A stretch of DNA of 64,000 nucleotides from assembly GCF_015690345.1 (NCBI RefSeq), contig NZ_JADPUN010000260.1, forward strand, positions 62,001 through 126,000. The letters run 5' to 3'. Shown here piece after piece: positions 34,977 to 50,097 of this stretch. The notes under the pieces were generated by a model, which saw only the letters and a program-made list of their open reading frames with translations, had not been told where the DNA came from and searched no databases. This DNA is from Plantactinospora alkalitolerans. Its GTDB lineage: Bacteria; Actinomycetota; Actinomycetes; Mycobacteriales; Micromonosporaceae. Position 1 is the stretch's first letter. Every line of letters begins with the position of its first letter. A program made the position numbers and the translations under genes.

Positions 34977-35016
34977 CGGGTTCCTTCTGCAGAGGAGTGG
35001 TGGTCGGGATTCGGAA

Positions 35017-36435
35017 TCAGAAGGGGTACGGGTTCGGGGCGTCGTCGCCGTAGTCGAAGTACTCGTCCGCGACGCCACCGCTGACGGAGTGCTTCAGATG
35101 CCAGCGCCGCACCCGGTTCTCGAAGTTCTGCACGATGCCGGGCTCCGTTGCCGGAGTCGCCGCGTTCCAGTTGCCCGGCACCGGATAGGTCCCGTGACTG
35201 CCGTAGCCGAACTGCACATCCGCCAGACCGTCGGTGCCCAGGTCGTTCTTCAGGTACCACCGGCGCGGACCGTCGGTGTCGTCCACGACGGCAGGGGTCC
35301 ACGATCCGTTGCCGTCCCAGTCGCCCGTCACCGGCCAGGTGTTCGAGTTGCCGTAGCGCAGCGTGTGGCTGACACCGCCACCGCTGTTCGCGTTGCGCAG
35401 CTCCCACTTCCACGCACCGCCGTCCTTGGACACCACACCCGGCGTGGACGTCCGGTTGCCGTCCCAGTCGCCCACCACCGGGATGTTGTCCTTGCCGCCG
35501 TAGAGGAAGCTGACGTCCGCGACCCCGCCGCTCAGCGAGTTCTTGAGATGCCAGCGGCGGGAGTTGTTCTCGTTGGCTACGGCGCCCGGGGTCCAGGCAC
35601 CGTCACCGTCCCAGTCACCGGCGACCGGGACCATGTGCGCGTCGCCGTACCGGAACGACACGTCCGCGACGCCACCGGTCTGTGAGCGCCTGAGATGCCA
35701 CTCCCACACCGATCCGGCCCGTAGCACCACGGCCGGGGTGAACTCGCCGGTGTCGAACCAGTCCCCGGACAGGGCGTACGCCGGAGCCGGCGGGTTCCAG
35801 AGGGCGTTGACGATGATCTGCGCGTCCGATGCCTGGACCTGGTACCTGTCGGGGTATGCCGAGACCTGTACGGCCTGGCAGACCTCGCCGATCGGGGCGG
35901 TGGCCCAGGTGTTGTCCGGGTAGAGCCGGAGCATCTTGCTGAGGAATGCGTTGGTGGCCCAGGTGGGGTTGAGTCGTTCGGCGCGGGTGCCCCACGAGGC
36001 GCGTTGCTGGAACAGGCCGAGGCTGTCGTGGTCGACCTCCACGCTGATGTTCTGCAGGTGGGTTTCCACGATCACGGTGGCGATCGCGATGACAGCGGCG
36101 CGGGAGGCGAGGCCGCGGGTCTGTACGGCTTCGACGACCTCTCGGGCGCAGGAGACGCGGTAGGCGCTCATGTAGCCCTTCATGTCGGAGCGCAGTTGGG
36201 AGTTGAGCGTGGTGGCCAGGGTGGCGTCGTTCGCGGTCGGTCCGTTCGGGTCGCAGGCGACCGTCTCGTACGCCGCGTTCAGGGGAGCCAGCGCGGGGGG
36301 CAGGGCCGGTTCGGGTAGCGGACCGGCCAGGGCCGCCGGGGCGGTGACGGCCAGCACCGCTGCGGCGAGCGCCAGCGCCACACAGGCCTGGCGCGCCCGC
36401 CTCGGGCTCCCGGTCACTGAAATCGTTCCGTTCAA
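35017..36435 (-). CDS. Secreted lysozyme-like protein with FG-GAP-type repeats
   Basis: Secreted protein of 472 residues: a signal peptide ending PAALAGPL, then a lysozyme/transglycosylase-like domain of about 150 residues with IVETHLQNISVEVDHDSLGL and FQQRASWG (candidate catalytic Glu in ETH). Six blades follow with GDWDGDGAWTPG, GDWDGNRTSTPG, GDWDGNGSWTPA and similar cores, ending YFDYGDDAPNPYPF. A peptidoglycan-directed role is likely, the repeats serving binding. TTG 36435 is chosen because GGAGG (36445-36441) precedes it by 5 nt and the signal peptide follows. A hairpin (36453-36474) lies in the leader. A broken copy occurs at 44930-45522. Confidence 0.78.
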   Translation of the reverse strand: MNGTISVTGSPRRARQACVALALAAAVLAVTAPAALAGPLPEPALPPALAPLNAAYETVACDPNGPTANDATLATTLNSQLRSDMKGYMSAYRVSCAREVVEAVQTRGLASRAAVIAIATVIVETHLQNISVEVDHDSLGLFQQRASWGTRAERLNPTWATNAFLSKMLRLYPDNTWATAPIGEVCQAVQVSAYPDRYQVQASDAQIIVNALWNPPAPAYALSGDWFDTGEFTPAVVLRAGSVWEWHLRRSQTGGVADVSFRYGDAHMVPVAGDWDGDGAWTPGAVANENNSRRWHLKNSLSGGVADVSFLYGGKDNIPVVGDWDGNRTSTPGVVSKDGGAWKWELRNANSGGGVSHTLRYGNSNTWPVTGDWDGNGSWTPAVVDDTDGPRRWYLKNDLGTDGLADVQFGYGSHGTYPVPGNWNAATPATEPGIVQNFENRVRRWHLKHSVSGGVADEYFDYGDDAPNPYPF

Positions 36436-36452
36436 TCGAACCTCCGGTGAAG

Positions 36453-36474
36453 ACCAGCCACTGAGCCGGCTGGT
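36453..36474 (-). promoter_or_regulatory. Leader hairpin before the lysozyme-like gene
   Basis: ACCAGCC (36453-36459) pairs with GGCTGGT (36468-36474), 8-nt loop, ending 8 nt before the ribosome site. Confidence 0.35.
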
Positions 36475-36520
36475 GACATAGAGGCTCGTGGACGTCGCTG
36501 TACAGGGACTGGCGGGACAC

Positions 36521-36540
36521 CACCGGTACGTCACCGGTAC
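36521..36540. promoter_or_regulatory. Direct repeat with 11-bp period
   Basis: CACCGGTAC occurs at 36521-36529 and 36532-36540, an 11-bp repeat period like SARP binding sites, upstream of the lysozyme-like gene. Confidence 0.35.
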
Positions 36541-36603
36541 TACCGCAGCCGCCCGGGCGCGGACGTCCGAGGTGATCGCAGCCGGCGGCGGTGGCGGTGG
36601 TAC

Positions 36604-39144
36604 CTACCTCGGTACGTCCACCGGAACGTCGACACCGAGCCGCTTCGCGAGTTCGGCGGCTTCCGGTACTCCCAACTCCTGGTAGAGCCGGTGGGCATCG
36701 ATCAGCAGTTTCCGCGCCGCCGGCTCGCCGGCCCGTTCCGCCGCCTCGGCGAGCGCTACGAGCGCGCGCGCCCGTAGCGCCGGTACCTGCTCGTCGGTCC
36801 AGTAGCGCAGGGATCGCCGGAGCCGGTCGACGGCCCCTCGGGTACCACTGCGGACCTCGATCTCGCCGAGACTCAACTCCGTGAGGGCGAGACCCCAGTC
36901 GTTACCCCGGTCCCGGAAGATCACCGCCGCGGTGGACAGCGCCTCCTCGGCCTCGGTCGTACGGCCGGGGTTCTGCGCGAGTGACTCGCCGAGCGCCCGC
37001 AGGCTCTGTGCCGTACCGATCGGATCGCCGATTCGCGCGAAGAGCTCGGCGGCCCTCCGCGCCGCCTGTTCCGCCTCGCCGTGCCGGCCACCGGCCAACA
37101 GCGCACCGGCGAGACCGCGCAGGCTGTACGCCTGGGTGAAGGTGTCGCGGCACGACCGGGCGATGGCGATCGCGACGCGGGTCATCCGGACGGCCTCGTC
37201 GATGTTGCCCTGCTGCCGCAACACGAATCCGAGGCTGGTCAGGGCCCGGGCCTTGGCTGGGCGGCTGCCGACCCGTTCCAGCGCCTCGGTGGCGGCGCGC
37301 AGCTCGGCCTCGGCCTCGGCGAGCCGGCCGGCCAGGCCGAGCACGTAGCCGATCTCCTTGCGCGCCATCGCGGCCCCGGCCCCGTCGCCGAGATCTTCCG
37401 CCAACGTCTGTGCGGCCCGCAGCGTCGCCAGCGTCGCGTCCGACTGGTCGAGCTCGACCATGCAGCTGCCGAGCCCTCGTAGGGCCGCCGCCTCGCCGGA
37501 ACGATCACCGGCCCGCCGGCAGCAGTCCAGCGCGGCGCGCATGACCCGGTGCCAGTCGTCGTAGTAGCCGCGCAACTCGTAGAAATCGGCACCGCAACCG
37601 GCCAGGGCCCGGGTGAGCGCGGCCAGCCCCGCTGCCGCGCACGCCGGCACCAGCGCCGCCAACGCCTCCCGTTCGGCCTCGAACCAGTCGACGGGCTGGC
37701 CGGTGGCGACGGCGATGACCCGGTGGTCGGCGGCGACCGCCGGATGACTCCGGTCGTCGAGGTGGAACCGCTCGCAGTGCAGCCGGTCCTGGGCGTGCCG
37801 GGCGAGGGCCAGCCAGCCGGACGCGGTCCGGTCCAGTGCGGCGGTCCATTCGGTACGGCTGATCTCCTCCTGCTGACGCTCCCGCGCGAACAGCCGGGTT
37901 ATCTCGTGGAACCGGTAGCGCGGCTGACCGGCCCGGTCCGGCCCGAGGGTGTCCAGCAGCCGCGCGTCGAGCAACTCGTCGAGCACGGCGGCACCGACGT
38001 CCGGCGCGGAATCCAGCAGCGTGGCTGTCGGCCAGCCCGGAAAGGTCGGCACGTTCAGCGCGCCGAGCAGCGCGAACGCCCGGCCGGCGGCCGGCGACAG
38101 TCCGTGGTACGCCAGTTGCAGGCCGGGACGTACGGCAAGGTCGCCGTAGGACAGTTCGTCGAGCCGGCGCCGCTCGTCGGCGAGCCGCTTGCTGAGCGTT
38201 CCCACCGTCCAGTGCGGCCGGGCGGCGAGTCGGGCCCCGGCGACCCGGACCGCCAGCGGCAGCCCGCCGCACGCGGTGACGATCTCACTGGCGGCGACCG
38301 GCTCGGTCCGGATCCGGTCCTCGCCCGCGACCCGGCACAACAGGTCGACCGCCGAGGTGTTCGGCAGAGGGTGCAGGTCGATGGTGGTCACGCCGGGCAG
38401 CCCGGTCAGCGGCAGCCGGCTGGTGACCAGGACCGAGGTGCCTTCCGGGGGCATGAACGCCTCGACCTGGCGGTGACCGTGGGCGTCGTCGAGGACGAGC
38501 AGCGCCCGTCGGCCGGCCAGCCGGGCCCGGAACAACCCCGCTCGCGCGTCCGCGCCGGCGGGCAGCGTCGAGCCGTCGGCACCGAGCACCCTCAGCAGCT
38601 GTCCGAGCACCTCGGCCGGATCGACCGGCTGACCTCCGGTGTCCCGCAGCGCCGCGTACAGCTGCCCGTCCGGGAACCGGGTGGCGAGCCGGTGTCCGGC
38701 GTGCACCGCCAGCGCCGTCTTGCCCACGCCCGCCGGTCCGGAGATCACGGCCAACGTCGCGGCGCCGGTCGTCGGGTCGAGCACCCGGCAGAGCTGGTCC
38801 ACCTCGTCGTCGCGGGCGACGAAGTCGGGCAGGTCGGCGGGCAACTGCCGTGGCGCGGAGACGGTCGGGACGGCCAGCTTCGGTTGGGCGTTCCCGGCGG
38901 TCCGGCCGGGCCGGTTGGCCCAGAACAGCGCGCGTCCGGCGCCGACGAACTCCTCTCGGGCGTTCCCGGCCAGCTCCAGTGCCGTCGCCAGCTGCTCGAC
39001 GGTACGGGGCCGGGGGCCGCGCCCGTGGTCCCGTTCCATCTCGCGTACGGAGCGGGAACTGATTCCCGCCCGCTCGGCGAGTTCCTCCTGGGTGAGCCGA
39101 CGGTGAAGTCGATGCTCCCGGAGCAGCGCGGCGAACTTCTCCAC
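36604..39144 (-). CDS. XRE/NB-ARC/TPR transcriptional regulator (STAND ATPase)
   Basis: Cytoplasmic signal-transduction ATPase of 846 residues. An XRE helix-turn-helix (about 5-60: LREHRLHRRLTQEELAERAG) is followed by an NB-ARC domain with Walker A ISGPAGVGKTALA (about 134-146), Walker B RRALLVLDDAH, sensor TSRLPL and GxP motif GGLPLAVRVAGARL. A helical region and six or more TPRs (about 560-840) complete it. Such proteins switch on ligand and ATP binding to control secondary metabolite or peptide clusters. ATG 39144 faces the six-cysteine peptide gene across 150 bp, so it is the likely local activator or repressor. Confidence 0.88.
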   Translation of the reverse strand: MEKFAALLREHRLHRRLTQEELAERAGISSRSVREMERDHGRGPRPRTVEQLATALELAGNAREEFVGAGRALFWANRPGRTAGNAQPKLAVPTVSAPRQLPADLPDFVARDDEVDQLCRVLDPTTGAATLAVISGPAGVGKTALAVHAGHRLATRFPDGQLYAALRDTGGQPVDPAEVLGQLLRVLGADGSTLPAGADARAGLFRARLAGRRALLVLDDAHGHRQVEAFMPPEGTSVLVTSRLPLTGLPGVTTIDLHPLPNTSAVDLLCRVAGEDRIRTEPVAASEIVTACGGLPLAVRVAGARLAARPHWTVGTLSKRLADERRRLDELSYGDLAVRPGLQLAYHGLSPAAGRAFALLGALNVPTFPGWPTATLLDSAPDVGAAVLDELLDARLLDTLGPDRAGQPRYRFHEITRLFARERQQEEISRTEWTAALDRTASGWLALARHAQDRLHCERFHLDDRSHPAVAADHRVIAVATGQPVDWFEAEREALAALVPACAAAGLAALTRALAGCGADFYELRGYYDDWHRVMRAALDCCRRAGDRSGEAAALRGLGSCMVELDQSDATLATLRAAQTLAEDLGDGAGAAMARKEIGYVLGLAGRLAEAEAELRAATEALERVGSRPAKARALTSLGFVLRQQGNIDEAVRMTRVAIAIARSCRDTFTQAYSLRGLAGALLAGGRHGEAEQAARRAAELFARIGDPIGTAQSLRALGESLAQNPGRTTEAEEALSTAAVIFRDRGNDWGLALTELSLGEIEVRSGTRGAVDRLRRSLRYWTDEQVPALRARALVALAEAAERAGEPAARKLLIDAHRLYQELGVPEAAELAKRLGVDVPVDVPR

Positions 39145-39294
39145 GACAGTCGTCGACCTCCCCGTGATCCAGCAGCAGGGTATCCGAACGTCCGGCAGAA
39201 CGTCCGGTTCAAGCTCCTGGTCTGGCGGAGATCAACGGGCTTTGATAGATCAACTGGTCCGAACCAGCGTGATCAGTCCAATGAGGAGGCTTTG
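39145..39294. promoter_or_regulatory. Operator-rich promoter of the peptide operon
   Basis: The divergent spacer contains the direct repeat GAACGTCCGG (39186-39195 and 39198-39207, 12-bp period), the palindrome TTGAT-AG-ATCAA (39242-39253) and the inverted repeat CTGGT-CCGA-ACCAG (39254-39267) immediately adjoining, then TGATCA (39270-39275). GAGGAGG precedes the peptide start. Confidence 0.5.
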
Positions 39295-39492
39295 ATGACT
39301 CGTATGTTGAATGCGGTCGTCGACCGGATGGTCGGCGTCGTGGCACCGAAGGTGACCGCGCGGGCGGCCAGCGTCTGCCGGGAGAACACCTGCTACTGCC
39401 GGGGAATCAACCTGTACAAGCGGACCGTCTGTCTCTACGACGACGGCAGCGTGTGGTACGGACCCTGCAAGAACGTGGGCCCCGGCTGCTGA
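39295..39492 (+). CDS. Six-cysteine secreted peptide precursor (candidate disulfide-rich peptide)
   Basis: A 65-residue precursor. Residues 1-26 (MTRMLNAVVDRMVGVVAPKV, then TARAAS) form a cysteine-free leader with an amphipathic character and a signal-peptidase-like Ala-Arg-Ala-Ala site. The core of about 40 residues has Cys at 28, 33, 35, 46, 58 and 65: C-X4-C-X-C-X10-C-X11-C-X6-C, the last Cys being the C-terminal residue. Six Cys suggest three disulfides. The leader is not a classical Sec signal, fitting export by the adjacent ABC transporter. ATG 39295 has GAGGAGG 6 nt upstream. No Ser/Thr-rich lanthipeptide core or modifying cyclase is present. It heads an operon with thioredoxin, exporter, S26 peptidase and SARP. 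Confidence 0.8.
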   Translation: MTRMLNAVVDRMVGVVAPKVTARAASVCRENTCYCRGINLYKRTVCLYDDGSVWYGPCKNVGPGC

Positions 39493-39515
39493 TCGGGTAG
39501 CGCGTACCGGTGTGT

Positions 39516-39579
39516 CAGGGCCTGCTCGCGATGCTCCTGTTCGCCCTGCGGGAACAGGCCGCGTGGCGGGCGGGCCCTG
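39516..39579 (+). terminator. Nested hairpin, possible attenuator after the peptide gene
   Basis: CAGGGCC (39516-39522) pairs with GGCCCTG (39573-39579), enclosing CCTGTTC (39536-39542) with GAACAGG (39552-39558). It lies in the 192-nt gap between precursor and processing genes, where partial termination would give excess precursor message. Confidence 0.4.
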
Positions 39580-39684
39580 CGCGCCGGCGCGTCGTCGCTT
39601 CCCACGATGCGCCCGGTCGGTGGCAACCCCGCGCGACCCGGCGCTCTCCTCGCCCCGCGACACCATCCTTCAAGGAGAGACCCG

Positions 39685-40263
39685 ATGGCGTACCTGTCCA
39701 CGGCCATGGTCCTGTTCGGCCTGGTGGCCACCATCAACCTGCTCTTCACCTTCGGCGTCGTACGTCGGTTGCGTGAGCAGTCCGCCGAGTTGGCCGCCCT
39801 GCGCAGCGGCGGCCTGCCCGACAGCGCCCTGGCCGACGCCGCCGTGACCCACCCGGTCGGTGTGGCGGTCGGTCACCTCGACACCGCGGGCGTGGACGGT
39901 CAACGGGTCACCTCCACGACGCTCGGCACCCGCCCGCTGGTCGGCTTCTTCTCCCCGCACTGTGAACCGTGCAAGGAGCAGCTGCCCGCATTCGTCGCGC
40001 ACGCCGAGGCGCGGCCGGGAGGTCGGGACGGAGTACTGGCGGTGGTCGTCGGCACGGACGAGGAGACCGCCGAGGTGGTCGCGCGGCTTCGGCCGGTGGC
40101 CACCGTCGTCACGGAACCCGACCAGGGCCCGGTCCAGCGGGCATTCGGGGTGACCGGGTTCCCGGCGTTCGTCCTGGTCGAGCAGGGCGCCGTCGCCGCA
40201 TCCGACTTCAACCTCGTGCCGGTGGCCGAGCGGGACGCCGCGGCCACGCCGGCCGTGCGGTGA
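39685..40263 (+). CDS. Membrane-anchored TlpA/thioredoxin-like disulfide oxidoreductase
   Basis: A 192-residue protein with one N-terminal TM anchor (about 5-27, TAMVLFGLVATINLLFTFGV) and an extracytoplasmic thioredoxin fold. The redox motif Cys93-Glu-Pro-Cys96 is in FFSPHCEPCKEQLPAF and the cis-Pro loop in GVTGFPAFVLV. It would form, reduce or shuffle disulfides outside the membrane; the six-cysteine peptide encoded upstream is the obvious client. ATG 39685 follows AAGGAGAG by 5 nt. The ABC gene starts 3 nt after its stop. Confidence 0.88.
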   Translation: MAYLSTAMVLFGLVATINLLFTFGVVRRLREQSAELAALRSGGLPDSALADAAVTHPVGVAVGHLDTAGVDGQRVTSTTLGTRPLVGFFSPHCEPCKEQLPAFVAHAEARPGGRDGVLAVVVGTDEETAEVVARLRPVATVVTEPDQGPVQRAFGVTGFPAFVLVEQGAVAASDFNLVPVAERDAAATPAVR

Positions 40264-40266
40264 GCG

Positions 40267-42084
40267 GTGTCGTTCCGGGTACTCGGGCGGGCACTGGCAC
40301 TGGCCCGGGACGCCGCACCGAGGCACATCGCCGCGTACCTGGGTCTGTCGGTCTTCGCCGGGCTCGCGCCGTTGGCGGTCGCCTGGCTGATGAAACTCGT
40401 GATCGACCGGCTGACGGGCCCGGTGGTGTGGCTCGACGTGATCGGGCTGGCGGGTGCACTCGGCGGAGTCGGGATGGCAGTCGCGCTGGTGCCGCACGCC
40501 GTCCGGTACCTCCGGGCCGAGACCGATCGGCGGGTGCTCCTGGTCGCCGTCTCGCGCCTCTACGCGGCCGTTGACCGCTTCGTCGGGCTGCGTCGCTTCG
40601 AGGACCCGGCCTTCCTCGACCGGTTGCAGATCGCCCGCGCCAGTGGGGTGAGCGGCCCCGGGATGGTGGTGGACGGCGGTCTGGGCGCCACCCAGGCGTT
40701 CCTCACGGTCATCGGGTTCGCCGGCACCCTGCTCCTGCTCGGGCCGTGGATCGCGGTGACGGTGCTGCTCGCCGCCGGACCGGCACTGGCGGCGGAGATC
40801 GCGCTGAGTCGCCGCCGGGCGGCGATGGTGGCCGCGATCGGACAGGCCGAACGTCGCGAGATGTTCTACTCGGCCCTGCTGACAGATCCGCAGGCCGCGA
40901 AGGAACTCCGGCTGTTCGGCGCGGGACCGTATCTGTGGCGGCGGATGGTGGGGGAGATCCGCACGATCAACCGCGCCCACCGCAGGATCGACCGTCGGGA
41001 ACTGTTCCTCCAGGGAGGACTGGCGCTGCTCGGCGCCGCGGTGGCGGGATGCCTGTTGCTGTGGACGGTGCGCTCGGCGGTCACCGGCTCGCTGACCATC
41101 GGCGACGTGGCTCTCGTGATCGCTGCCGTCGGTTCGGTCCAGGCGGCGCTGGCCAGCCTCGTCGGCGAGGCCGTCGCCGTGCACCAGGCGCTGCTGCTCT
41201 TCGACCACTACCTGGCGGTGGTCGAGTCCGGGCCGGATCTGCCCGTTCGTCGCGCGCCGCTGCCGGTACCGCCGCTGAAGCGGGGGATCGAGCTGCGCGA
41301 CGTCTGGTTCCGGTACGCCGACGACCAGCCGTGGGTGCTGCGTGGTGTGAACCTGGTGCTTCCCGCGCAGGGCTGCACCGCCGTGGTCGGGCTCAACGGG
41401 GCCGGCAAGACGACGCTGGTGAAGCTGCTGTGCCGGCTGTACGACCCGACCCGTGGCGCCGTCCTGTGGGACGGCGTCGACCTGCGTGAGCTGGATCCCG
41501 GGCAGTTGCGGCGCCGGATTCGGGCCGTCTTCCAGGACGCGATCTCGTACGACCTCACCGCGCGGGAGAACATAGCCATCGGCGACCTGACCGCCATCGA
41601 TGACCCCGTCCGGATCGAGGCGGCTGCGCGACGAGCCGGCGTCCACGATGTTCTCGACAAGCTTCCGAACGGCTACGACACGCTGCTGACCAGGATCTTC
41701 TTCTCCGGGGACGACACAGGTGACCCGACGACCGGGGTGGTTCTCTCCGGTGGCCAGTGGCAGCGACTCGCGATCGCCCGGGGCCTCCTGCTCGAGCGAC
41801 CCGACCTGCTCGTCCTCGACGAGCCGAGTTCCGCGCTGGATGCCGAGGCCGAGCACGAGGTCCACCTGCGGCTTCGGGAGCACCGACGCGGGCGGGCCAG
41901 TCTGCTGGTCTCGCACCGCCTGGGCGTCCTACGCGAGGCCGATCTGATCGTCGTCCTGTCCGACGGACGGATCGTCGAGCGCGGCTCGCACGACGACCTG
42001 GTGGTGCGCGACGGTGAGTACGCCCGCCTCTTCAGTCTCCAGGCGGCCGGATACCACCCGTCGATACCGGGCGGCGCGGCATGA
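40267..42084 (+). CDS. Peptide-type ABC exporter, TM-NBD fusion
   Basis: Half-transporter of 605 residues. Residues about 1-320 are a six-helix type-I exporter domain; residues about 345-590 are the ATPase, with Walker A VVGLNGAGKTTLVKLL, Q-loop VFQDAISYDL, signature VVLSGGQWQRLAIARGLLL, Walker B LLVLDEPSSALDAEAE and switch His in LLVSHRLG. No N-terminal C39 peptidase domain is present, so the leader must be removed by another enzyme, fitting the adjacent S26 peptidase. GTG 40267 is 3 nt after the thioredoxin stop and the end overlaps the next gene by 4 nt. It would act as a homodimer. Confidence 0.9.
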   Translation: MSFRVLGRALALARDAAPRHIAAYLGLSVFAGLAPLAVAWLMKLVIDRLTGPVVWLDVIGLAGALGGVGMAVALVPHAVRYLRAETDRRVLLVAVSRLYAAVDRFVGLRRFEDPAFLDRLQIARASGVSGPGMVVDGGLGATQAFLTVIGFAGTLLLLGPWIAVTVLLAAGPALAAEIALSRRRAAMVAAIGQAERREMFYSALLTDPQAAKELRLFGAGPYLWRRMVGEIRTINRAHRRIDRRELFLQGGLALLGAAVAGCLLLWTVRSAVTGSLTIGDVALVIAAVGSVQAALASLVGEAVAVHQALLLFDHYLAVVESGPDLPVRRAPLPVPPLKRGIELRDVWFRYADDQPWVLRGVNLVLPAQGCTAVVGLNGAGKTTLVKLLCRLYDPTRGAVLWDGVDLRELDPGQLRRRIRAVFQDAISYDLTARENIAIGDLTAIDDPVRIEAAARRAGVHDVLDKLPNGYDTLLTRIFFSGDDTGDPTTGVVLSGGQWQRLAIARGLLLERPDLLVLDEPSSALDAEAEHEVHLRLREHRRGRASLLVSHRLGVLREADLIVVLSDGRIVERGSHDDLVVRDGEYARLFSLQAAGYHPSIPGGAA

Positions 42085-42602
42085 CCGCCGTTCTGGCCGG
42101 TGCGGGCGTGCTGCTGTTGCTCACGGTCACGACCGCACTGCTGCGTCGGCGGCTCGTCGTGGTGTCGGTCAGCGGCGCGAGCATGGCACCGACGTTGGGC
42201 TCCGGCGACCGGGTGCTGGTGCGCCGGACACCGGGCGAAGCGGTGCGCGCCGGCCAGATCGTGGTGGTCGAGGAGCCACGGCCGTGCCGGCGAGGTGAGT
42301 CGACCAGGCCGCGCCGCACCGACTGGCTGGTCAAGCGGGTGGTCGCGGTGCCGGGTGACCTGACACCGGCGTTCCTGCCGGCCTGGGAGCGGGGACCGGA
42401 CAGCCGGGTCCCACCCCGCCGTCTCGTCCTCCTCGGCGACAACGCCGAATTCAGTCGCGACTCCCGGCATTTCGGGTCTGTGTCTACCGACCGGGTGCTC
42501 GGCGTCGCCCTTCGCCGAGTAGGCGGCGGCACGCTGCGCCCCGCGCCCGTCGACGGTGCCGAGGATGCGACACGGCGGCGGGCGGGACCCGGGAGTGGAT
42601 GA
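42081..42602 (+). CDS. S26-family signal peptidase (candidate leader peptidase)
   Basis: Membrane serine protease of 173 residues. One N-terminal TM helix (about 4-21) precedes the catalytic core: Ser34 in VSGASMAPTLGSGD is the nucleophile, Lys85 in DWLVKRVVAVPGD the general base, and LLGDNAEFSRDSRHFGSV is box E. It is smaller and more divergent than the housekeeping LepB and sits in the peptide operon, so it probably cleaves the six-cysteine precursor near the Ala-Arg-Ala-Ala site. ATGA overlaps join it to both neighbours. Confidence 0.87.
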   Translation: MTAVLAGAGVLLLLTVTTALLRRRLVVVSVSGASMAPTLGSGDRVLVRRTPGEAVRAGQIVVVEEPRPCRRGESTRPRRTDWLVKRVVAVPGDLTPAFLPAWERGPDSRVPPRRLVLLGDNAEFSRDSRHFGSVSTDRVLGVALRRVGGGTLRPAPVDGAEDATRRRAGPGSG

Positions 42603-44842
42603 ACCGATCGACAACGGGGGTTGACGAGATGACCGACGGCGGAAGGCTACCCAGAACCTCTTTTGCCACCCTACTGCGACAGTATCGACAGACGGCGGGC
42701 CTCACCCAGCTCGAACTGGCCCACCGGTCGGGCCTGAGCATCACCGCGGTGCGGGACCTGGAGCAGCGACGTACGCTGCGGCCGACCCGGCGGTCGGTGT
42801 CCCGGCTGACCGCCGCGCTGGAGTTGGGGCCGCGACCGGCCGCGATTCTCCGCGGCTCCGCGACCGCCGGTACGGACCGGACGGCAGCGGCGGGGGTGGC
42901 GGCGCCCGTGGGGCGCCCGATGGTTTCCATCCTGGGACCGTTGCGGGTACAGCAGGGGGCGGTGACCGTCGACCTCACCTCGTCGCGCCAGCGCGTCCTA
43001 CTCGCCCGACTGGCCGTCTCGGCGGGCACCACCGTCAGCCGAAGGGACCTCCTCGAGGTGCTCTGGACCGGCGAGCAGCCGGAGTCGGCGGTCAACCTGC
43101 TGCACACCTACGTCGCCCGGCTGCGCCGGGTCCTCGACCCGGGCCGGAGCGGCAGGACGGCCGCCAGCGTGCTGACACATGCGTCGGGCGGTTACCGGCT
43201 GGAACTCGACGAGGACCAGCTCGACCTGCTGCGCTTCCAGCGACTCGTCCGGGAGGCCACCGAGGCCGACGGCCGGACCCCGGCCCAGGCGGTGGCCCGG
43301 CTGGCCGACGCCCTGACGCTGTGGCGCGGCGACCCGCTCGGTGACGTGGAGATGCTCTCCGGGCATCCCGTTGTCGCGTCGCTGACCACCTGGTTGACCG
43401 CGACGGCCCTGCGCTATGCCGATCTGCTCGACCAGTGTGGCGACTACGCCCCGGTGGTCGACGCGCTCCGCCCGATCGCCGGACGTTGTCCGCTCGACGA
43501 GCAGGTGCACGCCCGCCTCATCCTGGCCCTGGGCGCGACGGGTCGGCAGGACGAGGCGTACGCCGAGTACGACGGGATCGTCCGCCGCCTGGCCGACCAG
43601 CTCGGTGCCGATCCGGGTACGGAGCTGCGGGAGTACCACCAGCGGCTGCTCCGGCAACAGTGGACCGGGGCACGGCGGGCGACGGCCTGGAGCGACACCC
43701 GCCCGGCGGTACCGGTGCCGATCCAGGCCCCGGCGCCGGTGCCCGACTTCACCGGCCGGGCCGAGGAACTTCGCCGGGTCCGTGAGGTCCTCGTTCCGTC
43801 GGTGGACTGGGTGGCCCGGCCGTCGGCGCCGGTCTGCGTGATCGCCGGCCTGGCCGGCACGGGGAAGACCGCGCTCGCCCTGGTCGCGGCCGAGCAGTTG
43901 GGACCGGCATTTCCGGACGGGCAACTCTACGCCGACCTGCGGGGCCGCTCGGATCAGCCCGCGGCCGCCGGAGAGGTGCTCGTCCGCTTCCTGCACGGGC
44001 TGGGCGTGTCCGAGGACCGGGTGCGGGGCGACGACGAGAGCGCCGCCGCGCTGCTGCGCAGCGTACTGGCGGACCGTCGGGTGCTGATCGTGCTCGACGA
44101 CGCGCGGGACGCGGCCCAGGTGCGTCCCCTGCTGCCCGGTCGCGGCGGTAGCCGGGTGCTGGTTACCGCCCGGAATCGGCTGGTTGCCCTGGAGGGCGCC
44201 CGCCGGATCGACGTCACGACGTTGGACACGAGGGAGGCGCTCGACCTGCTCGCTGCGATCGTTCCTCCGGCGAGGACCGGCGGTGATCGGATCGCCGCGC
44301 TGGAGGTCGTCTCGGCGTGCGGGCACCTGCCGCTGGCGCTCCGGATCGCCGGGGTACGTCTGACGACCAGGGCTCGCAGCACCGTCGCTGACCTGAGTCG
44401 CCGGCTTGCCGATCCGCGTCGCCGGTTGGACGAGTTGCGGGTCGGTGACCTCGACTTGCGCTCCGCCTTCCGCTCCAGCGTCGACCAGTTGCCGGCCCCG
44501 GCGGCCCGCGCGTTCCGACTTCTCGCGTTGGCACCCGAACCGCTGCTGGGGCTGGCGGCCGCCGCGGCGCTGCTGGACCGGCCCACGACGGTGGTGGATG
44601 AGGAGTTGCAGCAGTTGGCGGATCTGAGCCTGCTGGTCGGCGTCGGTCCGGGCCAGTTCCGACTGCATGAACTGCTTCGGCTGTACGGGCGCGAACTCGC
44701 CCAGCGCGACGAGCCGGCCCGGGACCGCGCCGCCGCCCTCGCCCGGTTGGCGGCGTGGCGGGCGGCTCGCATCCTGCGCGATGGGGACCGGCGTCGGGAG
44801 GGTGGTACGGCGAGCGCGGCCATGGCTGATCACCGAGGCTGA
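42599..44842 (+). CDS. XRE-SARP-NB-ARC regulator lacking TPR tail
   Basis: Regulator of 747 residues with XRE helix-turn-helix (about 22-80: TLLRQYR then TAGLTQLELAHRSGLS in one frame), an OmpR-like winged helix starting ILGPLRVQQGAVTVDL (about 110-200), a BTAD domain (about 208-355) and an NB-ARC ATPase (Walker A AGLAGTGKTALAL, Walker B RRVLIVLDDARD). The double DNA-binding head is unusual. AfsR-like relatives continue for 200 or more residues of TPR; here the protein stops after the winged-helix region of NB-ARC, right before a rearranged segment, so it may be truncated. ATGA overlap with the S26 gene shows it is part of the peptide operon and may autoregulate it. Confidence 0.85.
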   Translation: MNRSTTGVDEMTDGGRLPRTSFATLLRQYRQTAGLTQLELAHRSGLSITAVRDLEQRRTLRPTRRSVSRLTAALELGPRPAAILRGSATAGTDRTAAAGVAAPVGRPMVSILGPLRVQQGAVTVDLTSSRQRVLLARLAVSAGTTVSRRDLLEVLWTGEQPESAVNLLHTYVARLRRVLDPGRSGRTAASVLTHASGGYRLELDEDQLDLLRFQRLVREATEADGRTPAQAVARLADALTLWRGDPLGDVEMLSGHPVVASLTTWLTATALRYADLLDQCGDYAPVVDALRPIAGRCPLDEQVHARLILALGATGRQDEAYAEYDGIVRRLADQLGADPGTELREYHQRLLRQQWTGARRATAWSDTRPAVPVPIQAPAPVPDFTGRAEELRRVREVLVPSVDWVARPSAPVCVIAGLAGTGKTALALVAAEQLGPAFPDGQLYADLRGRSDQPAAAGEVLVRFLHGLGVSEDRVRGDDESAAALLRSVLADRRVLIVLDDARDAAQVRPLLPGRGGSRVLVTARNRLVALEGARRIDVTTLDTREALDLLAAIVPPARTGGDRIAALEVVSACGHLPLALRIAGVRLTTRARSTVADLSRRLADPRRRLDELRVGDLDLRSAFRSSVDQLPAPAARAFRLLALAPEPLLGLAAAAALLDRPTTVVDEELQQLADLSLLVGVGPGQFRLHELLRLYGRELAQRDEPARDRAAALARLAAWRAARILRDGDRRREGGTASAAMADHRG

Positions 44843-44929
44843 GGCGGTCGACTCCGTCAGCCGGTCACGTCATTTGCTGGTGGCCACCAGCCCGGCTCGC
44901 AGCGGTGATGACCAGTTCCACTCCTCGGA

Positions 44930-45522
44930 GCCGGGTCCGCCAGGCCTGTTGGTGCTGGCGCTCGCCGCCACGGCACTGACCGTCACCGCCCCGGCGGCCC
45001 TGGCCGGTCCGCTACCCGGACCGGCCCTGCCCCCGCTGGCACCACTGAACGCGGCATACGCAACGGTCGCCTGCGACCCGAACGGACCGACCGCGAACGA
45101 CGCCGCCCTGGCCACCATGCTCAACTCCCAACTGCGCTCCGACATGAAGGGCTACATGGCTCTACCCGGACAACACCTGGGCCACCGCCCCGATCGGCGA
45201 GGTCTGCCAGGCCGTACAGGTCTCGGCATACCCCGACAGGTGCCAGGTCCAGGCATCGGACGCGCAGATCATCGTCAACGCCCTCTGGAGTACACCGGAC
45301 CCTGAACCGGTTCCGGTCCAGGACCCGAATGTGGTGCAGCAGTCGGGTGATTTCAACGGGGACGGCCGGTCTGATCTGGCGGCGATGTACCACCACTCGG
45401 ATGGTTCGATCTCGATGCAGACCGCGTTGGCGTACAGTTCGGGTGGCTTCGCCGCGTTCACCGGTAGCCTCACCGTTCCCGCCAGCGCCGCCTGGAAATG
45501 GGACGCCATCCGCCTTTTCTGA
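44930..45522 (+). pseudogene. Broken copy of the lysozyme-like repeat protein gene
   Basis: The 5' part matches the gene at 35017-36435 closely (TAPAALAGPLPGPALPPLAP; ATVACDPNGPTANDA; LNSQLRSDMKGYM). After KGYM about 85 codons, including the catalytic ETH region, are missing and the sequence resumes in another frame with LYPDNTWATAPIGEVCQAVQ. It then passes into a single divergent blade GDFNGDGRSDLAAMYHHSD and stops at 45522. A proper start and signal-peptide beginning are lost. The deletion plus frameshift makes a functional product unlikely. It lies just after the possibly truncated SARP gene, suggesting that one recombination event affected both. Confidence 0.75.
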
Positions 45523-45583
45523 CCACCAACATCAGCAGCAGGGAACTGCTCCGGTGAGCCCTTCCTGAACCACGGGAGGCGCA

Positions 45584-45617
45584 GACCACGCGGGCATGGA
45601 GTCTCGCCCGCGTGGTC
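45584..45617. terminator. Perfect 12-bp hairpin terminator
   Basis: GACCACGCGGGC (45584-45595) pairs with 45606-45617 around a 10-nt loop, after the pseudogene and before the SWIM gene. Confidence 0.75.
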
Positions 45618-45715
45618 CGCTTCCAGCCGCGCCGGCGCCGATGGGACAGCGGGTTGCGACACCGGGTGGCAGGATGCGTGGGGAATCTGGGACGGGACAG
45701 GAGAGGGATCGACGA

Positions 45716-47077
45716 TTGGGCACCCTGGCGTCGACTGTGGACACCCGCGTCTACGGTCGTGCATCGGGCCTGGCCGGCGACCATCTCGCGCTGACCACGT
45801 CCACGCCCGACCGGGTACGGGAGCAGGCGTTCTACTCCGGTTTCGTGCGTACGCCCCGGATGGTCGCCGGCGGCCTCCTCGCATTGGCCGATATCGCCGG
45901 TGCCGACTTCCGTCAGGCCCGCAACGACCCGTGGCGCGGCCGGGACCCGGTGGTGACCGGCGACGGCGAGCGACTGCGGTTCGAGGCCCTCTCGATGTGT
46001 GGCGGGCTGTACGGTCGGCTCGACCTGGCCGCCGCCGAGTTGGAGGGTGGGGCCACCGGCCGGGGCACGACGAACGTCGACATCAATCCACCGCTCTACC
46101 AGGCGTTGACGAGAGTGGGTGGTGCGGACCCGCTCCGTCTCTCCGTGGGCGCCGACGGTCTCGCGGTCGCGACGCTCGACGGCGGCATCGTCGAGAAGAA
46201 GGTGCCGCTGCCCACCGCGTGGCTGCGCGGGCTGGCCGAGGTGGCGGCGCGGGCACTGCCCCTGGATCTGCGGCTGGAGATCCCGGCGGGCCGGGCCATG
46301 GCACTGCTGGCGGAGATGTCGGCGCGCTCGGGCCGACGGGTCCGCTGGCTGCTGCCGGCCGGTTCGGCGGTGCGGGCCACGGCCGGCCCGGCGCCCGGCG
46401 GGGTCTGCGCGGCCGACGGTTTCCGGCTGTCGGTGCTGCGCCCGCTGCTACCCCTGGCCCGCACCGTGGGGTTGTACGCACCACCGCTGTCCGGGGCGCC
46501 GGCACAGGTCAGCGGCTGGGTGCTCGATTTCGGTACGGCACGGTTCACGCTGCTGATGTCGGCCGGCGCACGCGACGGCTTCGCCGGTGACGGCCAGTTG
46601 CTCGCCGACCTCGCCACGGATGCCGCAACCACCGACGTCGATGCCGACGCCGACGTGCTGAGCGCGCTGCTCGCCACGGACCCGGTCGCCTCGCGCGCGT
46701 CGGTCGGGGTGCGCACCGGCTGGGATCCGACCCGGGTCACGGCGGCGCTCGCCGCGCTGGCCACCGCCGGACAGGTCGGCTACGACATCGCCGAGGCCTC
46801 GCCGTTCCACCGGCCGCTGCCCTACCGGGCCGACGTCGTCGCGGCACTGCACCCCAGGCTGGCGGCGGCACGGGTGCTCGCCGGGGCCGGGCGGTTGGTA
46901 CGGACGGCCGCGGGAATCGAGGTCACCTCAGGTGACAACACCTATCTGGTGCATCGACGCGACGGCGAGCTCGCCTGCACCTGCGCCTGGTGGGCCGACC
47001 ACCAGGGCCGCCGTGGACCGTGCAAGCACGTCGTGGCCGCCGTTATCGTCGAGCAGTCGGGGCGATCGCATGAGTGA
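45716..47077 (+). CDS. SWIM zinc-finger protein
   Basis: Soluble protein of 453 residues whose C-terminus carries the SWIM motif CTCAWWADHQGRRGPCKHVV (CxC...CxH, zinc-binding, nucleic-acid or protein interaction). The rest is a conserved but unassigned domain with NVDINPPLYQALTRV near residue 110. TTG 45716 is chosen because AGGAGAGG lies about 8-11 nt upstream; the frame is open further up, through the terminator hairpin, where it is not credible. It overlaps the following gene by 8 nt, forming a two-gene unit found widely in actinobacteria. Confidence 0.78.
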   Translation: MGTLASTVDTRVYGRASGLAGDHLALTTSTPDRVREQAFYSGFVRTPRMVAGGLLALADIAGADFRQARNDPWRGRDPVVTGDGERLRFEALSMCGGLYGRLDLAAAELEGGATGRGTTNVDINPPLYQALTRVGGADPLRLSVGADGLAVATLDGGIVEKKVPLPTAWLRGLAEVAARALPLDLRLEIPAGRAMALLAEMSARSGRRVRWLLPAGSAVRATAGPAPGGVCAADGFRLSVLRPLLPLARTVGLYAPPLSGAPAQVSGWVLDFGTARFTLLMSAGARDGFAGDGQLLADLATDAATTDVDADADVLSALLATDPVASRASVGVRTGWDPTRVTAALAALATAGQVGYDIAEASPFHRPLPYRADVVAALHPRLAAARVLAGAGRLVRTAAGIEVTSGDNTYLVHRRDGELACTCAWWADHQGRRGPCKHVVAAVIVEQSGRSHE

Positions 47078-49751
47078 CCTGTGGGACGAGGTACGCGTGA
47101 GGATCGACGCCGCCGACGTCGACGCGCTCGCCGACCTGCTCGCCGGGCTCGGTGACGGGGACCGGACGGCTCTGGTGCCGCACCTCGACGGGCACATCCC
47201 GGCGCTGGCCGAGCCGGAACCCGTGGTCCTGCCACCGCTGGAACCGGAGCCGCTGCCCGACCTCCCGACGTCCGGATTCATCACCGTGGGCTTCGTCGCG
47301 TACGACAAGGAACTGCCCAGCGACCTGCAGGGCGTCCGCGAGATGATGGCGCGTCAGCGCACCCGGCAACGGGAGCACGAACGCGCCTGGCAGAGGCGGC
47401 GGCTGGAGGAGGACGCGCGGTGGGCCGCCAGCCGGCTGAACGACTCGCGACGGGCCGCCACCGGGTTCGCCCTCGTCGCCTGCACGTTGAAGGCACCCGA
47501 CGCGGTCAAACTGTTGCACCGCCCCTGGAGTGTGGGTCCGGCGCCACAGGTGTCGCCCGAGGTGGTGCCCGCCCTGCTGCGGGTCCGGGGGAGCGCCTGG
47601 TGCACCACGCTCGCCCGGGGACTGTTGCGCCGCACCCGCCCCCGTACCCAGGGCGTTCGGTGGGCGTTCACCGAGGCGCTGCTGCGGTCGGTGGACGCGG
47701 ACGTTCCGGACACGCCGGCCGCCGCCGCGCAGTACGTGGCGCTCGACCGGGGGCATCCGCTCGCGCCGCTGCTCGCCGCCGACCCGTGGCTCGACCACAT
47801 GCTGTCGACGTACCTGTTCGACGACGACGGCGTCGCGAACGCGTTCTCCTCCGGGGCCGCGGCCCGCGCCTGGCCGGCGGCGTTGCTCGAGTTGGCCGGC
47901 AGTGCCCGGGTCGACCGTGGCCTGCTCGTCGCGGGCTGCCTGCGCCGCCTGCGCGCGGGTGGACGTAAGGGGGTCCTGCAGTCCTATCTCGGACTGGTCC
48001 GTGACCTTGCGCCGACGGCAGAGGAGTCGGCCGGGCACACGCAGGAGCTGATCGGTCTGCTGACGGCGCCGATGTCCACGGTGGCCGACTTCGCGTACAC
48101 CTGCCTGCAAGCAGTGCACCGGAGCGCGGGTCTCGATCCGCTGTCCCTGGCCGAGATCACCCAGAACATGCTCTGCCGGCCGGAGAAGAAGCTGGTTCGC
48201 GCCCACCTCGCCTGGCTGCGGCCGATGCCACTGGACGACCTGGTCGAGGGGCTCGTCGTCGGGCTGCACCATCCGGTGCCCGAACTCGCCGAGCGCACCC
48301 TCGACCTCGTCGAGACGCGACTGGCAGGGCTGTCCGAGAAGGCCCGGGAACGGTTGGCTGCCGAGGTGCCGGCCCTCGACGGCACCGTCGGGAACCGGCT
48401 GGCGGCGGCGCTCGGCACGGCCGCGCCCGCGGTGGTACCCGCACCGGTGCTGGCCGCAGCCGAGCTGCCGAGAGAGATGCCGTCCCCGCTCGACCTCGGC
48501 GCGCTCGCCGGTGAGCTGAGCGTCCTGCTGCGTAACGGCGACACCGACCCGGTCCGGCACGAGGCCGTCCTCGACGGGCTGGTCCGGGCCGCCAACGGCG
48601 ACCGGGACCTCGCCGCCCGCGTGCTGGAGCCGCTGATCACCCACTGGTACGGGTACTGGCCGGCGCTGATCGCCGCGACATTCGGCCGCTCCGTGGGCAG
48701 TCCCGGCCGGCAGATCCCCCGCGAGCACGCGCCGCTGAGCCTGTTCGTCAACGGTCGGCTTGCCGAGTTGAGACCCCGTCTGATCCACCAGCCGCCGCCC
48801 GGGCTGCTGGCGACCCCGGCCACAGTCGCCGGTCACGTCGACCCCGCGCGGGTACTGAACCTCCTGCAACAGGCCGACCGCGACCGCTGGCAGCCCGCGG
48901 CCGGTGACCTGACCCAGGCACTACTCCGCCTGCCCCGCGAGGTCGAGCCGGCCGTCCACGCCGCCGCGGCGCGCCTCAGCTCGCCGGCCGGGCGTCGGTT
49001 CGCCGCCTGGCTGGCCGACGGCGTCACCGACGCGCGTACCTGGATCGAGGAGGTCGACGAGACCACCTACGACCGCTCGCGGCGCATCGCAATGCTTGAC
49101 CTGGCGGGACTGCCAGCCGAGATCGGCGACGCCCGCACCGCGGCTGAACGCTCGGCGTCCGCCTGGCACATGCCCTCGCTGGCACTGTGGCCGATGATCA
49201 CACCGTCACACCGGGAGATCGCCGCCGCACACCTGCAGCCGGTCGTCGCCCTCGCGGTGGATCACCAGAATCCCGGCACCGGCTTCCTCGACGGCCTCGC
49301 CGCCGCCGACGGCCCCGCCGGCCCCGCGACCGCGTTGACGATGGTGTACGCCCTTGCGAACCGCCGGGAGGGTGTCCGACTGGCGGCCGGTGACGCCCTC
49401 AGCACGTTCGCCGCTCGCCCCGGTTGGGACAGCACCGGCATCGGCGTGGAACTCGGCATCCTGGCCGGCTCCGACCGCATCGTCCTGCAACGTACCCTCC
49501 AGCCCCTGACCGAGGCGCTCAAGGCCGGCGCCCACGACGCGGTCTGGCAGATCGCCTCGGCGGCACTGCCCGACCTGCTGGCCGCCAAGCCCCGCCCGGG
49601 ACTGCCCGAGTTGCTCACGCTCGCCGCTGATGCTGCTCGGCTGGGCCGGCACACCGGGCAGGAGCCGCCGGGCCTCGCCGCGATCACGGGCAGGCCTGGC
49701 CGGAGCCAGCTCGCCACCGCCGCCCGCAAGCTCGCCGAAGCTCTTCGATAG
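47070..49751 (+). CDS. Large DUF6493-like alpha-solenoid protein, partner of the SWIM protein
   Basis: Soluble, mostly helical protein of 893 residues without signal peptide. A short N-terminal DUF6493-like region (SDLWDEVRVRIDAADVDALA) is followed by an Arg/Glu-rich coiled segment near residues 90-120 and long HEAT-like helical arrays (VPELAERTLDLVETRLAGLS). No nuclease, ATPase or protease motif was found. The assignment rests on the SWIM neighbour and overall form. The pair is known near MoxR/VWA genes in some genomes; those are absent here. Function unknown. Confidence 0.6.
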   Translation: MSDLWDEVRVRIDAADVDALADLLAGLGDGDRTALVPHLDGHIPALAEPEPVVLPPLEPEPLPDLPTSGFITVGFVAYDKELPSDLQGVREMMARQRTRQREHERAWQRRRLEEDARWAASRLNDSRRAATGFALVACTLKAPDAVKLLHRPWSVGPAPQVSPEVVPALLRVRGSAWCTTLARGLLRRTRPRTQGVRWAFTEALLRSVDADVPDTPAAAAQYVALDRGHPLAPLLAADPWLDHMLSTYLFDDDGVANAFSSGAAARAWPAALLELAGSARVDRGLLVAGCLRRLRAGGRKGVLQSYLGLVRDLAPTAEESAGHTQELIGLLTAPMSTVADFAYTCLQAVHRSAGLDPLSLAEITQNMLCRPEKKLVRAHLAWLRPMPLDDLVEGLVVGLHHPVPELAERTLDLVETRLAGLSEKARERLAAEVPALDGTVGNRLAAALGTAAPAVVPAPVLAAAELPREMPSPLDLGALAGELSVLLRNGDTDPVRHEAVLDGLVRAANGDRDLAARVLEPLITHWYGYWPALIAATFGRSVGSPGRQIPREHAPLSLFVNGRLAELRPRLIHQPPPGLLATPATVAGHVDPARVLNLLQQADRDRWQPAAGDLTQALLRLPREVEPAVHAAAARLSSPAGRRFAAWLADGVTDARTWIEEVDETTYDRSRRIAMLDLAGLPAEIGDARTAAERSASAWHMPSLALWPMITPSHREIAAAHLQPVVALAVDHQNPGTGFLDGLAAADGPAGPATALTMVYALANRREGVRLAAGDALSTFAARPGWDSTGIGVELGILAGSDRIVLQRTLQPLTEALKAGAHDAVWQIASAALPDLLAAKPRPGLPELLTLAADAARLGRHTGQEPPGLAAITGRPGRSQLATAARKLAEALR

Positions 49752-49753
49752 TC

Positions 49754-49779
49754 GGTCGGAACGGCCGCCGTGGCCGACC
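49754..49779. terminator. Hairpin after the solenoid gene
   Basis: GGTCGG and ACGG pair with CCGT and CCGACC around the loop CCG, with small bulges, 3 nt after the stop codon. Confidence 0.4.
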
Positions 49780-49825
49780 AGACCAGCCCTGGATGGTCAG
49801 GCCGATCGCGACGGGGGAGGAATGG

Positions 49826-49951
49826 TCAGTTGGACCAGGTGTATCCCGCCACGTCCGATACGCTCTGAGCCTGGCCCAGGGCGAGGACGACCGCCACGCC
49901 GGCGGCGACGACGAGGGCGGCCACACTGGTGATGATGCTTCGCAGACGCAC
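49826..49951 (-). CDS. 41-residue single-pass membrane peptide
   Basis: A small gene: GTG start at 49951 with CTCCTC (49958-49963) giving GAGGAG 6 nt upstream on its strand, and TGA at 49826. The product begins MRLRSIITSV, has one Ala/Val-rich hydrophobic helix (about 6-25) and ends SVSDVAGYTWSN. It could be a small membrane protein or a secreted peptide after cleavage near LGQAQ. It lies between the solenoid gene and the LPMO, on the LPMO strand but after its terminator. No family recognised. Confidence 0.5.
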   Translation of the reverse strand: MRLRSIITSVAALVVAAGVAVVLALGQAQSVSDVAGYTWSN

Positions 49952-50097
49952 GACGATCTCCTCTGCTTTCGCGCGTGATTTCGTATCGCCAGGGTACCCG
50001 CGCATCGACGATGCGTTTGCTGTCGATCACCGTGCGAAATGCCGCGACTGACTGCTGCTTTCGTCCGGCCTGGCCCAGTTCGACGCGGGAACGCGGA

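Follow-up and report, generated by a model that had tools for sequence, protein, structure and literature searches.

The window analysed here, a 64,000-nucleotide (nt) stretch of the Plantactinospora alkalitolerans genome (contig NZ_JADPUN010000260.1), carries at positions 39295–44842 a locus that very probably encodes a leader-dependent, disulfide-rich secreted peptide: its precursor would be exported by an ABC transporter without a C39 domain, cut after an A-x-A motif by an S26 peptidase and folded by a TlpA-like protein, which MauE accompanies in about half of the related clusters, yielding a defensin-like or otherwise antagonistic product. By sequence comparison, the precursor belongs to a large, apparently undescribed family of cysteine-rich peptides from soil actinobacteria that couples a fixed leader to a hypervariable core. 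The basis for this reading is the precursor family itself, its linkage to partner genes, a sharp leader/core boundary, an even number of cysteines and the conserved active-site residues of the partner enzymes.

The leader defines the family. We gathered 144 distinct precursors, 138 of which could be anchored gap-free to a Pro preceded, at a distance of eight residues, by Asp or Glu; the other six were excluded from column counts. The resulting pattern is D-R-x6-P-x3-A-x-A. Because the anchor consists of the Pro and the acidic residue, it accounts for part of their conservation, whereas the conservation of A-x-A owes nothing to it. An Arg directly follows the acidic residue in 115 of the 138 anchored precursors, Ala occupies position +4 in 133, Ala or Gly position +6 in 137, and both positions are kept in 132. 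The column information is 4.05 bits at +4 and 4.20 at +6, then 1.03 at +7 and 0.22–0.49 at +10 to +13. Conservation thus ends at A-x-A, which would be the cut site expected of a signal-peptidase-type S26 enzyme, and the layout of a conserved N-terminal leader with a separate variable core follows the leader logic of ribosomally synthesized and post-translationally modified peptides (RiPPs). The longest stretch of the leader without any of the residues D, E, R, K, N, Q, H and P has a median of 6 residues, does not exceed 6 in 131 of 138 and reaches 9 at most; by this run-length count, which is not a signal-peptide prediction, none of the anchored leaders has the uninterrupted hydrophobic core of a Sec signal peptide, and the leader is unlike one for lack of a long hydrophobic run. 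One subfamily (L137, L138, L140) has V-A-K in place of the usual leader V-P-K, and its cores are alike across genomes of two genera, contrary to the usual hypervariability.

The anchored cores measure 28–56 residues (median 40), and cysteine makes up 18.6% of their residues. Of the 138 cores, 134 contain an even number of cysteines: eight in 67 precursors, six in 46, ten in 15, twelve in three, four in two and two in one. Among the 73 precursors lying outside the second profile, taken as extracted, 65 have an even number, compared with 2084 of 3483 other small open reading frames with 4–12 cysteines. Of the eight odd cases in that set, L154, L202 and L205 owe their odd number to an in-frame cysteine that precedes the probable start, one is a degenerate-looking three-cysteine sequence (L141) that counts as even, with two core cysteines, under the anchored split, and four are genuine (L133 twice with seven, L160 with five and seven). 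The window precursor matches its preliminary description, with the spacing C-X4-C-X-C-X10-C-X11-C-X6-C, a cysteine-free leader and T-A-R-A-A at residues 21–25. Its six cysteines are all retained among four close orthologues, whose core ratios of non-synonymous to synonymous substitution rates (dN/dS) lie between 0.05 and 0.30 over six pairs, indicating that the core is under purifying selection in this group. The preliminary description had offered a cysteine pattern free of selection as a ground for abandoning its proposal; the retained cysteines, the low dN/dS and the even parity all go the other way.

The same description had named a second such ground, a small reading frame not conserved beside the TlpA, ABC and S26 genes. 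Linkage was scored as the presence of TlpA, ABC (E below 1e-90) and S26 genes within 6 kb of a precursor, at 84 precursor loci chosen from the best-scoring matches, several of which share one genome, and at 20 other loci of these genomes that served as controls. Four hub genomes (G004, G007, G026, G083) were separated after the data were seen. The full set of three occurs at 48 of the 58 non-hub loci (48 of 84 with the hubs included) and at none of the 20 controls, where none of the partner genes was found (0/20); Fisher's test gives p = 1.5e-11 for non-hub loci versus controls, the loci being not fully independent. An ABC gene is present at 52 of the non-hub loci, at least one of the three genes at 56, MauE at 31, and a regulator similar to the divergent or the SARP regulator of the window within 6 kb at 39. 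Counted by genome or record, 38 of the 43 outside the hubs show the complete trio at least once among the loci read. In another twenty loci, most of them chosen by their ABC genes, S26 is present in 18 cases, TlpA in 16 and a precursor (E ≤ 1e-3) in 12. When plasmid records were searched with nothing but the ABC protein, 29 matched; the three examined each hold leader-bearing precursors (two, two and one, with six cysteines each) together with MauE, TlpA and S26. One of these clusters is from Streptomyces clavuligerus, where both precursors are annotated as mere hypothetical proteins. Where homologues align, the S26 catalytic Ser (70/70) and Lys (69/69) show no substitution, and the TlpA CxxC is intact in 75 of 76, with the Pro also conserved. 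A chance reading frame was discarded as an explanation of the precursor in view of its homologues, the core dN/dS and the neighbour linkage.

Two parts of the preliminary picture need amendment. The peptide was said to have its own oxidoreductase and exporter; the linkage stands, and the exclusivity does not, as an exporter set may be shared and one exporter accompanies many precursors in the hub genomes. The redox part was described as TlpA alone; TlpA is there, and the description is incomplete, since 31 of the 58 clusters encode MauE, the three closest to the window also do, and the window copy is broken. In a cluster of genome G376 (L130:7174-9616), two TlpA-like genes flank a precursor and MauE, and the second TlpA-like protein has Thr for one Cys of the CxxC.

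A composite route can be drawn from these parts. First, the D-R-x6-P-x3-A-x-A leader would direct the precursor to the C39-less ABC exporter, which would carry it across the membrane. Second, the membrane-bound S26 peptidase would cut after A-x-A on the outer face. Third, the TlpA-like protein, acting as oxidase, isomerase or reductant, would help the six-cysteine core to form three disulfides, with MauE joining in at about half of the related clusters. ABC export, S26 cleavage and thioredoxin folding were already proposed in the preliminary description, and they fit the leader ending in A-x-A, the linkage and the even cysteine number; from that pattern we infer each step, and with it the export route, the cleavage, the disulfide bonds, the order of events, the activity and the target. 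With the leader as a constant handle, nothing would hold back variation in the core, and one exporter–peptidase pair can thus serve many precursors.

This possibility is taken furthest in the hub genomes. When 150 candidates were scored per genome, at least 55 precursors were counted in G007, 32 in G026, 25 in G083, 23 in G075, 15 in G004, 9 in G066 and 9 in the window genome, at least 168 in the seven together. Family ABC genes at E ≤ 1e-90 number 1, 2, 1, 20, 1, 1 and 7 in the same order, so that four genomes with a single detected family exporter (G007, G083, G004, G066) hold 9–55 precursors each, again as lower bounds. On these counts the family comes in two styles: many clusters, often with an exporter each (G075 and the window genome), or many precursors alongside one exporter (G007, G083, G004 and G066, and nearly so G026). 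Of the precursor loci of G004, G007, G026 and G083, 26 were read; none has an ABC gene within 6 kb, and one has TlpA with S26. At the hub exporter loci L189–L194 the ABC gene adjoins an S26 gene, and that of G083 (L190, fetched through its ABC gene and outside the 84) has a precursor beside MauE-TlpA-ABC-S26. The cores of about 40 G007 precursors look unrelated by eye save for a few similar pairs, and a purine-rich stretch precedes the start in most of those read. We consider it reasonably probable that this amounts to a conotoxin-like strategy in bacteria, in which fixed leaders and free disulfide-rich cores allow one general exporter–peptidase pair to secrete dozens of peptides from scattered genes. 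The window genome contains eight other precursors at E ≤ 1e-3 and a weaker ninth (L067:1984-2187, E 6e-3), which had escaped the preliminary description. At L067:1984-2536 (contig C54) two precursors stand in tandem near regulators, and TlpA, ABC and S26 were not seen in the stretch read; this genome may thus also hold orphan precursors. A GTGTACAC-like word was seen by eye upstream of several scattered precursors (L154, L155, L159) in two hub genomes, and could be the operator of a shared regulon.

Structure predictions, fed by only four sequences, give a hint of the fold. The core modelled alone reaches a mean predicted local distance difference test score (pLDDT) of 93.2 in the best model, with four strands (E3-12, E15-23, E29-31, E35-39), and the first 22 residues of the full precursor stay under 50. 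Foldseek searches with the best core and precursor models both returned laterosporulin3, laterosporulin and laterosporulin10 as the top three PDB entries, with TM-scores, normalised to the query length, of 0.59–0.66 in the case of the core model. The cysteine spacing of laterosporulin differs from that of the window core. Other defensin structures are absent from the Foldseek and VIA matches listed, an absence that excludes nothing. The predicted core is a four-stranded sheet that may resemble laterosporulins; none of the matches is significant singly, and the retrieval of all three twice makes the resemblance a lead.

Several observations weigh against the interpretation of the locus as a secreted disulfide-rich peptide system. 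The full gene set is missing from 10 of the 58 non-hub loci, and 5 of the 43 non-hub genomes lack a complete set at the loci read. Eight of the 20 ABC-centred loci have no precursor at E ≤ 1e-3, four of them being hub-genome exporter loci. Four anchored precursors have an odd core cysteine number. The laterosporulin matches are not significant (Foldseek E 0.12–0.77), and their VIA Z of 3.1–3.5 is tied with unrelated folds; the five models per job disagree, from pLDDT 71.6 down to 40.8 for the precursor and from 93.2 to 41.1 for the core. The mauE gene is broken at the window locus itself. The exporter of G007 and the first exporter of G026 consist of ABC and S26, with neither TlpA nor MauE detected alongside, which suggests that ABC and S26 form the minimal pair. 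Finally, no candidate immunity gene recurs beside most of the scattered precursors at the 26 hub loci: the largest groups of shared neighbours, whether immunity, receptor or other, reach at most 4 of 26 loci (12 largest groups; frames of at least 70 residues within 4 kb), and several of those groups are frames overlapping the precursor itself.

We regard a defensin-like antimicrobial, or a peptide that is antagonistic in some other way, as the most likely mature product; the lack of a recognisable immunity gene leaves room for targets that differ from the producer, for enzyme inhibition or for signalling. A less likely but still serious alternative to antimicrobials is a role in signalling, development or enzyme inhibition for the secreted peptides, their hypervariability reflecting specificity groups or a variety of targets. 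AfsR/SARP-like regulators near 39 of the 58 non-hub loci, the missing common immunity-type neighbour and the dozens of variants in some genomes suit such roles, whereas a common receptor-type neighbour is missing too and the fold hint leads to bacteriocins. It is improbable that the precursors are modified RiPPs of lanthipeptide, sactipeptide or glycopeptide type, whose cysteines enter other cross-links through enzymes encoded elsewhere while TlpA and MauE keep the thiols reduced until then: proteins of the TlpA/ResA type are often reductants, and the regulators score with the RiPP-associated models HaaT and FxSxx TPR, below cut-offs, but no such enzyme is found among the operon proteins, neighbours of the scattered precursors recur at no more than 4 of 26 loci, and even parity suits pairwise disulfides. 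Ordinary Sec secretion, with the leader as a weak signal peptide, S26 as a spare signal peptidase and an unrelated ABC gene, is a very remote reading; signal peptidase I sites typically read A-x-A, the S26 protein passes the TIGR02227 cut-off of NCBIfam and two stronger S26 genes exist elsewhere in the genome, yet the leaders carry D-R and only short hydrophobic runs, and the ABC gene accompanies 52 of the 58 non-hub precursors and adjoins S26 at the hub exporter loci. That the cores bind metal in the manner of metallothioneins or metallophores is just as far-fetched, for all their cysteine content and CC and CxC motifs, given even parity with highly variable spacing, the TlpA (often MauE) linkage and the predicted folded sheet.

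Among described systems, the nearest printed statement we found concerns three Streptomyces candidate families from decRiPPter, selected with a filter that demanded a transporter, a peptidase and a regulator (PMC7794033). Each has a mauE homologue and a predicted precursor with at least eight cysteines, and one also has mauD, which is TlpA-like (PMC7794033). The comparison is one of descriptions, and the section concerned, restricted to Streptomyces, names no leader motif, S26, A-x-A site, scattered precursors or product (PMC7794033). Measured by mauE and eight or more cysteines, 31 of the 58 non-hub loci have MauE and eight is the commonest core cysteine number, while the window has six cysteines and a broken mauE. 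Laterosporulins, defensin-like bacteriocins of Brevibacillus (PDB 4ozk, 6lwy, 6lwz), share the six cysteines of the window core and are described with four strands in a twisted sheet and three disulfides (PMC8529825); they are leaderless by PDB title, unlike the window precursor, and gave no sequence match. The actifensins of Actinomyces are likewise actinobacterial six-cysteine defensin-like bacteriocins with a leader, nearby ABC genes and up to six homologues per genome (PMC6989792). Their motif, C-X5-12-C-X3-C-X9-10-C-X4-5-C-X-C, does not fit the window core; G-X-E precedes the mature part, the loci carry a subtilisin-like protease and a LuxR regulator, and the words peptidase and thioredoxin are absent from the main text of that paper (PMC6989792). 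Nearest in logic are the prochlorosins and synechococsins, in which one machine serves hypervariable, possibly scattered precursors; they differ in their lanthionine synthetase (ProcM/SyncM), thioether products and Nif11-family precursors (PMC10783134). C39 systems also pair an ABC exporter with leader removal, but there the peptidase is an exporter domain cutting at a double Gly (PMC6363468), whereas here a separate S26 serine peptidase would act at A-x-A. The family would therefore join the leader-dependent exported peptides with a leader, a peptidase and a redox pair different from the known ones.

The closest relatives of the window precursor come from Dactylosporangium aurantiacum (78% identity), Thermoactinospora rubra (75%) and Microbispora hainanensis (75%), the first two belonging to different orders. 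In Micromonosporaceae, 122 of 354 genomes match a 21-member profile at E ≤ 0.01. Within the order, 30 of 249 match at E ≤ 0.001, namely 19 of the same family, including the window genome, and 11 from four other families. Across the phylum, 11 of 396 match at E ≤ 0.01, and only the window genome and G376 are convincing. As 17, 24 and 15 candidates were scored per genome in the family, order and phylum searches, these genome counts are lower bounds. A match in Prevotellaceae (L039) was discarded as spurious and short. No Pfam or NCBIfam model fits the 21 precursors (best E 0.11 and 0.073, all unrelated), a scan that left PHROGs and PADLOC outside; a PDB sequence search returned nothing for the family profile and weak unrelated matches for the window precursor; and no description of the family was found in the open-access PubMed Central literature, subscription papers and supplements lying outside the reach of that search.

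The layout of the window locus is collected in the table.

Table. Features of the precursor locus in the 64,000-nt window.
Feature	Position	Strand	Basis
Divergent regulator, HTH + NB-ARC + TPR, AfsR/HaaT-like, without BTAD match	36604..39144	-	Pfam/NCBIfam
Precursor peptide gene, 65 residues	39295..39492	+	ATG 39295, stop 39492; family alignment, dN/dS
Precursor leader, residues 1-24, ending A-R-A	39295-39366	+	
Precursor core, 41 residues, six Cys	39367-39489	+	
mauE remnant	39496..39657	+	DNA alignment with relatives L036-L038
TlpA-like thiol-disulfide protein, membrane-anchored, CEPC, cis-Pro160	39685..40263	+	Cys pair and Pro conserved in homologues
ABC exporter, membrane and nucleotide-binding parts, GTG start, no C39 domain listed	40267..42084	+	
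Presumed leader peptidase of S26 type, similar to signal peptidases, with N-terminal hydrophobic segment and Ser34/Lys85 dyad	42081..42602	+	
AfsR/SARP-type regulator, HTH, Trans_reg_C, BTAD, NB-ARC, no TPR match	42599..44842	+	

The genes are as the preliminary description had recognised them. The last four nearly touch or overlap, with a 3-nt gap between TlpA and ABC and 4-nt overlaps between ABC and S26 and between S26 and the SARP gene. The TlpA-like protein has an N-terminal hydrophobic segment and Redoxin, AhpC-TSA and Thioredoxin matches, each slightly under the Pfam cut-off; the ABC protein matches ABC_tran (E 1.8e-26), with no C39 peptidase match listed in Pfam, which sets the locus apart from double-Gly/C39 peptides; the S26 protein matches Peptidase_S26 (E 1.3e-19), with its dyad conserved in homologues; and the SARP gene matches BTAD (E 3.6e-27) along with its other domains. 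No modification enzyme was found with Pfam and NCBIfam, a search confined to the operon proteins of the window, and an Rfam scan of 34000–50000 gave no RNA element at gathering scores. The divergent regulator and the mauE remnant had gone unnoticed.

The three closest clusters (L036–L038) carry an uninterrupted mauE, roughly 520 bp long, between precursor and tlpA (L036:8199-8717 matches MauE, PF07291, at E 4.3e-26), and no SARP-type regulator was detected after S26 in them. DNA alignment indicates that the window keeps only the start of mauE, about 160 bp, with 337–355 bp lost and two small gaps shifting the frame. Five MauE matches occur elsewhere in the genome, one of them intact inside a cluster of the same precursor family on contig C243. 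After this loss, the window locus may use MauE in trans from that copy, manage without it, or be decaying. The SARP protein aligns to the AfsR model only over positions 30–630 of 986, its TPR end unmatched, and may have been truncated by a rearrangement on its right. On either side of the cluster lie inverted copies of a section of a 505-residue gene (35787-36380, minus strand; 44950-45298, plus strand, a broken fragment), in three blocks that are 92–96% complementary and 8.6–9.2 kb apart; neither frame has a Pfam match. The missing TPR end and the broken flanking copy point to further rearrangement of the locus, as far as sequence can tell.

The locus thus leads to a peptide family missed by the curated models of Pfam and NCBIfam and by the open-access papers searched, with an A-x-A/S26 logic that departs from the common double-Gly/C39 type. 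New disulfide-rich peptides and possible antimicrobials can be sought by a simple rule derived from it, and the seven genomes counted already offer a large stock; it also points to a natural secretion platform that is seemingly tolerant of very different cysteine-rich cores. With its plasmid-borne cluster, Streptomyces clavuligerus provides a laboratory strain that is practical to work with. The hub genomes allow testing whether one exporter serves dozens of peptides.

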